From NCBI GenBank assembly GCA_018674655.1, contig JABGZQ010000108.1, forward strand, positions 1 to 40,824: 40,824 nt of DNA, written 5' to 3'. Of the stretch, positions 19,529 through 23,309 are shown one piece after another. Source of the DNA: Fidelibacterota bacterium. GTDB taxonomy: Bacteria; Fidelibacterota; Marinisomatia; Marinisomatales; TCS55. The notes beneath the pieces are model-generated. The model saw nothing but the letters and a program-made list of their open reading frames with translations, did no database searches and was not told the DNA's origin. Position numbers and translations under genes: made by a program. Positions within the stretch are counted from its first letter, which is position 1. Every line of letters begins with the position of its first letter.

Positions 19529-19735
19529 TTATTGGTTTGCTTTGTTGTATTTCTTTTTGAATTTTTCAATTCGACCAGCAGTATCTACCAACTTTTGTTT
19601 TCCTGTATAAAATGGATGGCATTCCGAACAGATTTCAATGTGTTGATCCCCCATGGTACTATACACTTGGAATGTATGACCGCAGGAACAAACGACATTG
19701 CCCATTTTATATTCAGGGTGTGTATTTGCTTTCAT
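19529..19735 (-). CDS. rpmE: 50S ribosomal protein L31, zinc-binding type
   Basis: The protein has 68 residues. The Zn ligands Cys16, Cys18, Cys36 and Cys39 ([19 protein letters not shown]) are all present, so this is the C+ form. It ends with the family's [20 protein letters not shown] tail. It forms the L31 intersubunit bridge of the ribosome. The gene lies 20 bases after the aminotransferase stop and is followed by a terminator. The common order rho-rpmE-prfA is kept, except for two inserted genes. Confidence 0.97.
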
Positions 19736-19755: not shown

Positions 19756-20955
19756 TCAATTTAGTTGTTCTAAAACTTTTTTCACACGAAGAATTCCTTC
19801 GCGAATAACATTTTTTGCCAAGGGATAAGAAAACCGAATATGTCCCGGTGCACCAAATCCATCACCAGGTACTGTTACTACTTTTGCCTCATTCAAGATT
19901 ACATCACTCAATACAAATGAATCATCGATTTTTTCCCCTCGAAATGATTTTCCGATATAGGCTGAAAAATCTGGGAATGCATAAAATGCGCCTCCGGGAG
20001 TATCACAGGTTATTCCCGGCAATTCATTTAGCAACGAAACCATTAAATCCCTTCTTTCTCGAAATTTTCCTATCATCATTTCAACCGTCGATTGATCTCC
20101 AATCAATGCTTCTACAGAAGCCGCTTGTCCAATAGCGTTTGCGCAGGAAGTGGCTTGCCCTTGAATTTTCCCCATGGCTTTTATAATAGATTTTTCTCCA
20201 AAAGCATATCCAATGCGCCAGCCGGTCATTGCATATGTTTTAGACATACTCATGCAGGTAATAATATTTGCCCCAATGTGATGGTCGTCGCTCAGCTTCT
20301 GAGCGCTCGTAAATTCGCCCTCAAAAACGAGCCTTTCGTAACATTCGTCCGAAATCACTGTCCAGCTATTCTCTTTTGCCAGCCCTAAAAGATTAATAAT
20401 TATCTCATCGCTCCAGACACTACCGGTGGGATTCGACGGTGAATTAATAATTATCCCTTTAACTTTATCTGTTATTTTAGATTTTAAATTTTCAAAGTCT
20501 GGTTCAAAATTATTCTTAGAATCCGTATCAATTAATATGGGTGTTGCATCGGAAAGGGTTACAAATTCCGGGAACGATACCCAATAAGGTTTAAAAATTA
20601 ATACTTCATCTCCGGATTGAAATAGGGTTTGGCATGCCAGGTATAAACTTTGTTTTTCGCCATTAGAAATGAGCACCCGTTCTGGAGAAACCTCTAATTG
20701 GTTTTCTCGTTTTAGTTTTGTACAAACTGCTTGACGTAGTTCAATCGTGCCGGAACCGGCGGTATATTTTGTTTCACCATTATCCATTGCTGTTTTAGCC
20801 GCTTCCCGTATGTTTTCCGGTGTATTGAAATCTGGCTGTCCCGCGCTGAAATTAATTACATCCACGCCTTGAGCCCGCAATTCAGCGGCTCTGGATGTCA
20901 TTTCAAGTGTAAAAGAGGGTTTGACGCGTTGAACGCGTTCTGCAAATTCAGTCAT
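19756..20955 (-). CDS. Class I/II aminotransferase (aspartate aminotransferase type I-gamma)
   Basis: The protein has 399 residues. PLP features are INSPSNPTGSVW, the Asp/Tyr stretch VISDECYERLVF and the Schiff-base Lys in SMSKTYAMTGWRIGY. GQPDFNTPENI near residue 39 is the substrate-entry signature of AspB-like Ib aminotransferases. It should transfer amino groups between aspartate (or similar) and 2-oxoglutarate. It starts 14 bases after the Cas6-like stop. The exact substrate is not resolved; some relatives use prephenate or aromatic substrates. Confidence 0.93.
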   Translation of the reverse strand: MTEFAERVQRVKPSFTLEMTSRAAELRAQGVDVINFSAGQPDFNTPENIREAAKTAMDNGETKYTAGSGTIELRQAVCTKLKRENQLEVSPERVLISNGEKQSLYLACQTLFQSGDEVLIFKPYWVSFPEFVTLSDATPILIDTDSKNNFEPDFENLKSKITDKVKGIIINSPSNPTGSVWSDEIIINLLGLAKENSWTVISDECYERLVFEGEFTSAQKLSDDHHIGANIITCMSMSKTYAMTGWRIGYAFGEKSIIKAMGKIQGQATSCANAIGQAASVEALIGDQSTVEMMIGKFRERRDLMVSLLNELPGITCDTPGGAFYAFPDFSAYIGKSFRGEKIDDSFVLSDVILNEAKVVTVPGDGFGAPGHIRFSYPLAKNVIREGILRVKKVLEQLN

Positions 20956-20969
20956 ACGATTTATCTTTA

Positions 20970-22007
20970 TTACAGGCTATGTTGTTTTTTATGATATTTT
21001 TCCGAATTGTAATTCACATCGGAAGAAGAATCTTTTTTGGGTTGTTTTTTGGGTGGAGCCGCTTTTCTCTTTGGTCTCTTTGGTTTTGCTGTCTTTTTTG
21101 ACTGTGTTTCGTTACCGGAATCCATTTCCTCAATGTGAAATTCTTCCGATAAAACTTTTTTACTTCTTTTGGACTTAGGGGAATCTTGACCTGGCACCTT
21201 TTTAGGGCGCGGAACATTTTCAACATTTATTTCTTGTAGGTCAGATTCGGCAACCTTGGAATCTTCGTCATCTTTTACGGCTTTTGACTCTAATTCCTGT
21301 AAATCTGCTTCATCAAATGAAAAGACTTCGGGATTAAATAAACCGAATAGTGTGCCATAGCCCCTGGTAATACCATTTCCAATTCCCAAATAATTTGGCA
21401 AAACAAAATTCGCTCGAAACTCTCCATCAAACGAACCCCAGTTGTTTTCATCTACCGGTTTTGGGAAAAGAGAAGAAAGCGTCACTTTCGTAAAAATGTT
21501 TTCTTCCAGTTCCATCCCCATTTCCCGAGCCATAAAAACAATGTTTTGTCCAAGAAGACGGTTTAAAAAATTCACACGATCAGTATTGTTCAACAAACGA
21601 TAGCGATTCCCGGTCGTTTGATTTAGGGCGACCCAAGGGGTCACAAACCGATATCTTATTAATTTTGAAACGGGTTGAAATCGATCACTATATTCTTCTA
21701 TTTCGCTATCTAAAACCTGAAAAGTAATATTCCCAAAATCTAAGAATTCCATTTTTTCAGCAACAGATTTAATTGGATCAACTCCTTCACCAATTCCAAC
21801 AATATAAATTTGCTCGTTCAAGATTTTTACCTGAACGCGTGGATATAGAAATTGTTGACGGTAAGATCCATCAAGCATTGGGACGATTTCTTCGTCGGAA
21901 AACTGATTCATCAGAACGCCTTTTACCTGATAGGGCGTTTTTCGAACTGGTTTATCCGTAAACACACGGACAGCAATCGTTTTTACATCTGGGTACTTAG
22001 AACTCAT
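20970..22007 (-). CDS. Orphan Cas6-family RNA-binding protein with charged C-terminal tail
   Basis: The protein has 345 residues. A Shine-Dalgarno GGAGG at 22014-22018 lies 6 bases before the ATG. Residues 1-225 match the Cas6 layout of Bacteroidetes-type enzymes: QFLYPRVQVKILNEQIYIVG (52-71), RYRFVTPWVALNQ (118-130), an LLGQNIVFMAREMG helix and GEFRANFVLPNYLGIGNG. The glycine-rich loop at 208-218 reads GIGNGITRGYG, an exact GhGxxxxxGhG RAMP signature with an Arg inside. No His exists before residue 291, so the usual catalytic His is absent. Residues 230-262 are acidic and 265-325 Lys/Arg/Pro-rich. No CRISPR array or cas gene is near. The gene lies between rho and aspartate aminotransferase. 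Probably a non-cleaving RNA binder. Confidence 0.65.
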   Translation of the reverse strand: MSSKYPDVKTIAVRVFTDKPVRKTPYQVKGVLMNQFSDEEIVPMLDGSYRQQFLYPRVQVKILNEQIYIVGIGEGVDPIKSVAEKMEFLDFGNITFQVLDSEIEEYSDRFQPVSKLIRYRFVTPWVALNQTTGNRYRLLNNTDRVNFLNRLLGQNIVFMAREMGMELEENIFTKVTLSSLFPKPVDENNWGSFDGEFRANFVLPNYLGIGNGITRGYGTLFGLFNPEVFSFDEADLQELESKAVKDDEDSKVAESDLQEINVENVPRPKKVPGQDSPKSKRSKKVLSEEFHIEEMDSGNETQSKKTAKPKRPKRKAAPPKKQPKKDSSSDVNYNSEKYHKKQHSL

Positions 22008-22061: not shown

Positions 22062-23309
22062 TTACTGGCTCATTGTTTCCATAAATTCTTCGTTGGTTTT
22101 TGTTCGACGCATTCTGTCTTGAATGAATTCCATTGCTTCTATTACTTTCATTCCATTCAGCAGCTTTCTCAAAATCCACATTCGAGCGAGTACTTTTTTA
22201 TCCAGAAGAAGCTCTTCCTTTCTCGTTCCAGATCTTACCAAATCAAACGAGGGATAAATTCGTCGGTCACTGAGTTTTCGATCTAGGACTAACTCCATAT
22301 TGCCCGTTCCTTTGAATTCTTCGAATATGACTTCATCCATACGGCTACCCGTATCAATCAAGGCAGTGGCTATAATAGTTAAGCTTCCACTTTCTTCTGT
22401 ATTTCTCGCCGCACCAAAAAATTGTTTGGGTTTTTTTAGTGCATTTGCATCCACACCACCAGAAAGAATTTTACCACTATGAGGTATGACAGCATTGTGA
22501 GCTCTACCCAATCGAGTTATGCTGTCTAATAGAATGACAACATCTTCTCCAAACTCAACCATTCGGCGAGCTTTTTGAATCACCATTTCTGCTACAGCAA
22601 CATGCCGTTCTGGTGGCTCGTCAAATGTAGAACTGATTACTTCTGCATCTACATTTCGTTTCATATCGGTCACTTCTTCCGGACGTTCATCAATGAGCAA
22701 AATAATCATTTTAACATCTGAATGATTTTTAGTAATGGCATTCGCCACTTTCTGAAGTAATACTGTTTTCCCAGTTTTTGGTTGAGCCACAATAAGTCCG
22801 CGTTGTCCCTTGCCTACAGGAGAAATCATATCCATAATTCGAGTAGATAAATCTTTTGGGTTTACTTCTAGGTTGAATTTTTCTTCCGGGTAAAGTGGTG
22901 TAAGGTTGCTAAACAAAAATGCACGTTTCAATTTTTCAGGATCTTTTCCATTTATCTGTTCCACTTTTAAGAGTGCATAAAATCGCTCTTTTGATTTCGG
23001 TGGTCGGATTTGTCCTGCCACCTGATGGCCTGTCCTCAATCCAAATCGTTTTATTTGGGATGGGCTTACATAGATGTCATCTGGACCGGGGAGATAATTA
23101 AAATCAGGGCTCCGTAAAAACCCATATCCCTCTTTTAGCACCTCGAGAACGCCGTCAGCCATTACCCCGCCTTCTTTCTCGGTGTTGGCTTCAAGAATTT
23201 TGACGATGAGTTCTTGCTTGTTCATTCCTGAAAACCCATCAATATTCAATTGTGCGCCTAAGTCGGACAACTCATTGATTTTCAGTTTCTGTAATTCATT
23301 AACATTCAT
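22062..23309 (-). CDS. rho: Transcription termination factor Rho
   Basis: The protein has 415 residues, the compact form without long N-terminal insertions. Residues 1-45 are the Rho_N helical domain. Residues 50-120 are the cold-shock-like RNA-binding OB fold ([34 protein letters not shown]). The Walker A motif is AQPKTGKT (175-182), followed by the Walker [17 protein letters not shown] and the Q/R loops ([17 protein letters not shown]). It is a hexameric RNA helicase that ends untranslated transcripts. A 117-base leader precedes it; many bacteria autoregulate rho in its leader, but no clear structure is seen here. Confidence 0.98.

Follow-up and report, generated by a model that had tools for sequence, protein, structure and literature searches.

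Cas6b, the CRISPR RNA endonuclease of type I-B systems, is the closest described relative of the protein analyzed here, and two histidine residues of the M. maripaludis enzyme have been implicated in catalysis (PMC3652601). The Cas6 of Sulfolobus cleaves without an active-site histidine by means of lysine and arginine residues (PMC3652601), and a missing histidine is therefore no proof of inactivity. The locus that we compare with these enzymes lies in a window of 40,824 nucleotides, which is the whole stretch of DNA that was analyzed. A first-pass annotation had pointed to a Cas6-like protein encoded between rho and an aspartate aminotransferase gene, and our coordinates agree with this placement: The open reading frame for a 345-aa product occupies positions 20970..22007, with rho (22062..23309) as its constant upstream partner at a distance of 54 bp and aspC (19756..20955), which encodes aspartate aminotransferase, as its commonest downstream neighbor 14 bp off, all three on the minus strand. 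The gene for bL31, rpmE, was likewise located in this cluster as had been proposed (at about 19529..19735, minus strand), and the translation-related neighbors of the Cas6b-like gene comprise bL31, RF1, and PrmC. One point in the comparison with Bacteroidetes-type Cas6 needs correcting: The organism is a Neomarinimicrobiota MAG (placed via its relatives) and not a member of Bacteroidetes.

By sequence and predicted fold, the 345-aa protein is a true relative of Cas6b. Pfam places the Cas6b N-terminal RAMP domain at residues 6–104 (PF17955; 21696..21992, minus strand; 2.5e-12, 47.3 bits against a cut-off of 25) and the Cas6b C-terminal RAMP domain at residues 113–219 (PF17262; 21351..21671, minus strand; 5.4e-25, 88.2 bits against a cut-off of 39.4), and since both domains lie well over these curated cut-offs, the match is far beyond chance. 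A phmmer comparison with the solved Cas6b 4z7k gave 3.3e-29. The Pfam scan revealed Cas6b domains only and none of the Rof, Psu, or NusG type, a search of NCBIfam produced no match, and the Pfam entry text for Cas6b_C merely calls it the Cas6b C-terminal domain. In the AlphaFold (AF2) model, the core, including the N-terminal domain, has pLDDT values mostly of 94–98, and the best Foldseek match of this core is again Cas6b 4z7k (E 5.7e-19, probability 1.00). The top five matches are all Cas6b proteins with TM scores of 0.79–0.86 by target length, followed by other Cas6 proteins. The suspected Cas6 relationship was thus recovered both by profile search and by predicted fold.

The Gly-rich loop on which that suspicion had rested is found where it had been read, as GIGNGITRGYG at residues 208–218 (21354..21386, minus strand), and G210, G216, and G218 of this putative RNA-binding loop are invariant among 41 representatives of the clade of rho-linked proteins. 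The kept fold and the Gly-rich loop argue for RNA binding, which we consider very likely for the rho-linked protein. Its catalytic site, by comparison with canonical Cas6b, has been emptied: Residues P43-M44-L45 (21873..21881, minus strand) align with H38-N39-H40 of Cas6b, and histidine occurs at the two histidine columns in 15/16 and 16/16 canonical Cas6b proteins but at either column in 0/75 aligned rho-linked members. We take these columns to be the catalytic pair of M. maripaludis Cas6b, as their invariance in the canonical set would suggest. Similarly, the residue that follows GxG is Lys in 13/16 canonical proteins versus Asn in 70/75 rho-linked ones (GxGK to GxGN; N211 in the window's protein). 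The only histidines of the window's protein are found at positions 291, 339, and 343, in agreement with the earlier statement that none precedes residue 291, and the loss of the catalytic histidines noticed there extends to the entire clade. Canonical Cas6b paralogs of Neomarinimicrobiota carry an HNH motif.

Emptied catalytic columns argue against cleavage of the Cas6 type, and the rho-linked protein probably does not cleave RNA. It might instead be a still-active RNase whose substrate is a cellular RNA and whose active site differs from the usual one, as in Sulfolobus Cas6, and the near-invariance of R50, Y55, and K61 in the rho-linked clade fits such an enzyme as does the Sulfolobus precedent itself. 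We nevertheless regard this as rather improbable because canonical Cas6b proteins of the same and other phyla keep the histidine columns that are uniformly emptied here, and because the loop lysine is lost as well and the alignment of 75 members contains no conserved histidine column anywhere in the core.

The window is devoid of CRISPR-type direct repeats, and neither Cas1 nor Cas7 (PF05107) nor type III RAMP genes were detected in the window's own genome, which bears out the description of the gene as an orphan. Relatives were surveyed as well: Among 61 of them, Cas1 was found in 3, Cas7 in 0, and type III RAMPs in 1, versus 54 with the Cas6b-like gene. Family name and fold could suggest a Cas6 that processes crRNA in trans from CRISPR arrays at other genomic sites. 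We deem such a role extremely unlikely, given that Cas1, Cas7, and type III RAMP genes went undetected in its own genome, that none of the 61 relatives has Cas7, that the catalytic histidines are gone, and that the gene tracks rho rather than cas genes. In three related genomes (G179, G066, and G067), the rho-linked paralog is accompanied by a second Cas6b that has the histidines and belongs to a type I-B operon, where it lies beside cas8b and cas7. The canonical Cas6b gene adjoins Cas8b (TM1802) in these three genomes as well as in G209 and G218, with Cas7 and Cas3 where scanned, and a gene for a Cas3-type helicase in G083. Both forms are also present in G013 and G051, with the His-bearing copy beside an ORF6N-domain gene and no cas genes among the neighbors scanned. 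In these two genomes, which belong to two families, the ORF6N gene directly follows the His-bearing Cas6b (G013:C18, L080:5744-6958; G051:C148, L078:358-1571), possibly as a solitary pair. As a separate observation, Cas1 and RAMP genes occur in a type III-like region of G048:C12 (L085), along with a Cas6-like protein that is diverged and has no HNH motif.

The seven relatives without the Cas6b-like gene comprise four assemblies that are <80% complete, one of 81%, and two genomes of family-level group f15 (~1 Mb or less). Across 245 Neomarinimicrobiota genomes, a Cas6b_C match was obtained in 130 and is of two kinds, rho-linked or canonical, the latter a smaller and mostly higher-scoring set. 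The rho-linked kind covers 21 family-level groups (f1-f14, f19, f20, f22, f23, f25, f30, and f31), scores about 67–99 bits over full-length matches, and measures about 290–390 aa in the window's order and about 220–257 aa elsewhere. In all rho-linked loci that were fetched with flanks, rho is located upstream on the same strand, so that the supposed synteny with rho is fixed at every locus inspected across these 21 groups. By a strict distance rule, the Cas6b-like gene directly follows rho in 58/59 loci (median aligned gap 57 bp), and the aligned rho gap of the 59th is slightly longer. The wider neighborhood of folC, murI, aspC, prfA, and prmC is broken in f4, f9, f13, f22, and f23 with the rho link kept, and because the gene keeps to rho where aspC, prfA, or prmC are displaced, the bL31/RF1/PrmC neighborhood fails to explain its site. 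One genome (G124; L088 and L089) has two complete, diverged rho/Cas6b-like/aspC/prfA clusters; with 5% contamination, it may be a mixed bin.

In f15 and f16, groups with streamlined, small genomes, the gene is absent and rho directly abuts aspC (L173-L174, L180-L182, L184-L186, and L188), and aspC is also the next neighbor after rho in f24 and in gene-less members of f30. Presence and absence therefore alternate at one site, and when the region behind rho was searched with both profiles in those genomes that had given no match, no diverged, overlooked copy turned up. As f15 and f16 keep rho without the Cas6b-like gene, Rho works without this gene, and its lack in streamlined lineages points to a modulator rather than a core part. 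The same lineages, together with the neighbors bL31, RF1, and PrmC, could also speak for a housekeeping RNA-binding protein with targets unrelated to Rho, such as in translation or RNA turnover, that merely benefits from steady co-expression at the rho site, and adjacency to rho could indeed amount to co-expression alone. We view this role as possible but unlikely, given that the gene stays at rho in the five groups in which aspC, prfA, or prmC have shifted elsewhere and that the reverse was never seen.

The Cas6b-like gene is vertically inherited and evolves under purifying selection. Identity values between pairs of these proteins are strongly correlated with those between the Rho proteins (Mantel r 0.88; 0/2000 permutations), which is the pattern expected of vertical co-inheritance. 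The pN/pS of the core is about 0.05–0.10 and below that of aspC; in comparisons with loci L031 and L033, it amounts to about 0.05–0.07, below that of aspC and above that of rho. With vertical inheritance alongside rho, purifying selection, and coexistence with a type I-B canonical Cas6b in three genomes, the status of a domesticated gene, as first proposed, is well supported. In a phylogenetic tree, the rho-linked proteins form a monophyletic clade on one side of a branch that separates them from canonical Cas6b (support 98/96; 100% of bootstraps); this tree is unrooted, and derivation from Cas6b therefore rests on distribution rather than on the tree. Outside the phylum, a survey of about 187 genomes yielded no rho-linked member, and Cas6b matches occurred in 8/147 sampled genomes and in 3/40 genomes of one phylum that is near by rho identity. 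These outside matches show the HxH motif in all cases except one truncated copy that is unreadable at this site, and none of their loci revealed a rho gene. The rho-linked clade thus very probably descends from Cas6b. The opposite direction, with an ancient RNA-binding RAMP protein of the phylum giving rise to canonical Cas6b, would be compatible with two groups on opposite sides of one unrooted branch, but it is very unlikely because HxH-bearing Cas6b spans archaea and several bacterial groups whereas the rho-linked clade is found in one phylum only. Phage origin was also considered and is unsupported, as a scan of viral contigs gave zero relatives.

Since it lies 54 bp downstream of rho on the same strand, the Cas6b-like gene is probably co-transcribed with it. 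At four loci (L110, L112, L125, and L127), a promoter-like stretch, TTTGACA...TGTAATTT, recurs about 100 bases before rho and suggests a rho-led operon. An Rfam scan of the window gave nothing, and by-eye reading of 21 loci brought up no shared structured RNA element in the rho leader or in the region between rho and the Cas6b-like gene, with conservation at the level of the genus.

The core is followed by a low-complexity tail (residues 226–345; 20973..21332, minus strand) with low pLDDT over most of its length, which turns from acidic to basic as had been described: The pI is 4.05 for residues 226–262 and 10.04 for residues 263–345. It ends in the conserved motif YNSEKYHKKQH (residues 333–343; 20979..21011, minus strand), versions of which (e.g., FNSEEYHKKQH) are present in 53/55 long members of the clade with near-matches in the remaining two. 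The last 14 codons show zero nonsynonymous changes relative to L031 and L033, and the basic tail with its end motif is found in members of the window's order. A genome-wide docking motif YHKKQH was considered and rejected, as the codon pattern is confined to the Cas6b-like gene across 61 genomes. Within this order, the basic tail with its conserved end probably adds a docking contact.

We tentatively favor the view that the protein derives from Cas6b, is co-transcribed with rho, and binds RNA, probably without cleaving it, so as to modulate either termination by Rho or the stability of transcripts. A Cas6b would have been recruited once into the rho-aspC site in an ancestor within Neomarinimicrobiota and passed on vertically as a host gene thereafter, keeping the double-RAMP fold and the Gly-rich loop but losing the histidine pair and the loop lysine of the cutting enzyme. 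Most likely, the protein would bind defined cellular RNA sites without cleaving them and might either shield these sites from Rho or deliver Rho to them, so that Rho-dependent termination or transcript stability would be tuned; in one order, the tail with its conserved C-terminal motif would probably serve as an extra contact. The close association with rho hints at an effect on Rho or on its RNA substrates, and action on Rho seems plausible to us, if far from assured. A more specific and doubtful version is that of a termination specificity factor derived from Cas6, i.e., a host cofactor or regulator of Rho that would recognize specific transcripts without cutting them and dock by its lineage-specific tail.

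Among the open-access papers searched, we found none that joins Cas6 with Rho-dependent termination or describes such a clade. The locus looks like an exaptation of a CRISPR component from immunity to housekeeping, and some related genomes still hold a paralog of the active type for comparison. If this is true, the RNA-binding platform of Cas6 can serve general RNA regulation. The protein would then be a concrete, testable candidate for a Rho factor confined to one lineage of ocean bacteria, about whose transcription hardly anything is known.

Rof/YaeO, Psu, and NusG are known regulators of Rho. To these proteins we propose a functional analogy only; the rho-linked protein has a RAMP fold, and none of their domains was detected in it by Pfam. 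With the non-catalytic Cas6 of Pyrococcus (PDB 3ufc; PfuCas6nc in PMC3652601) it shares a Cas6 fold that has been described as non-catalytic, but PfuCas6nc belongs to a different Cas6 subfamily and is matched by Foldseek with an E of 1.2e-6, a TM score of 0.48 by target, and 13% identity, versus 5.7e-19 for Cas6b. Sulfolobus Cas6 (PMC3652601) is similar in its absent active-site histidine, yet it actively processes crRNA, in an organism that has CRISPR, and is distant in sequence. With M. maripaludis Cas6b (4z7k/4z7l; PF17955 and PF17262), the protein has in common both domains and the double-RAMP fold as well as the GxGxxxxxGxG loop and a YPxxQxK strand, whereas it lacks the H38/H40 pair and the lysine of GxGK, is linked to rho and not to cas genes, is vertically inherited, and has gained a basic tail in one order. 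By sequence and fold, the rho-linked protein is thus part of the Cas6b superfamily, and by catalytic site and context it stands outside Cas6b.
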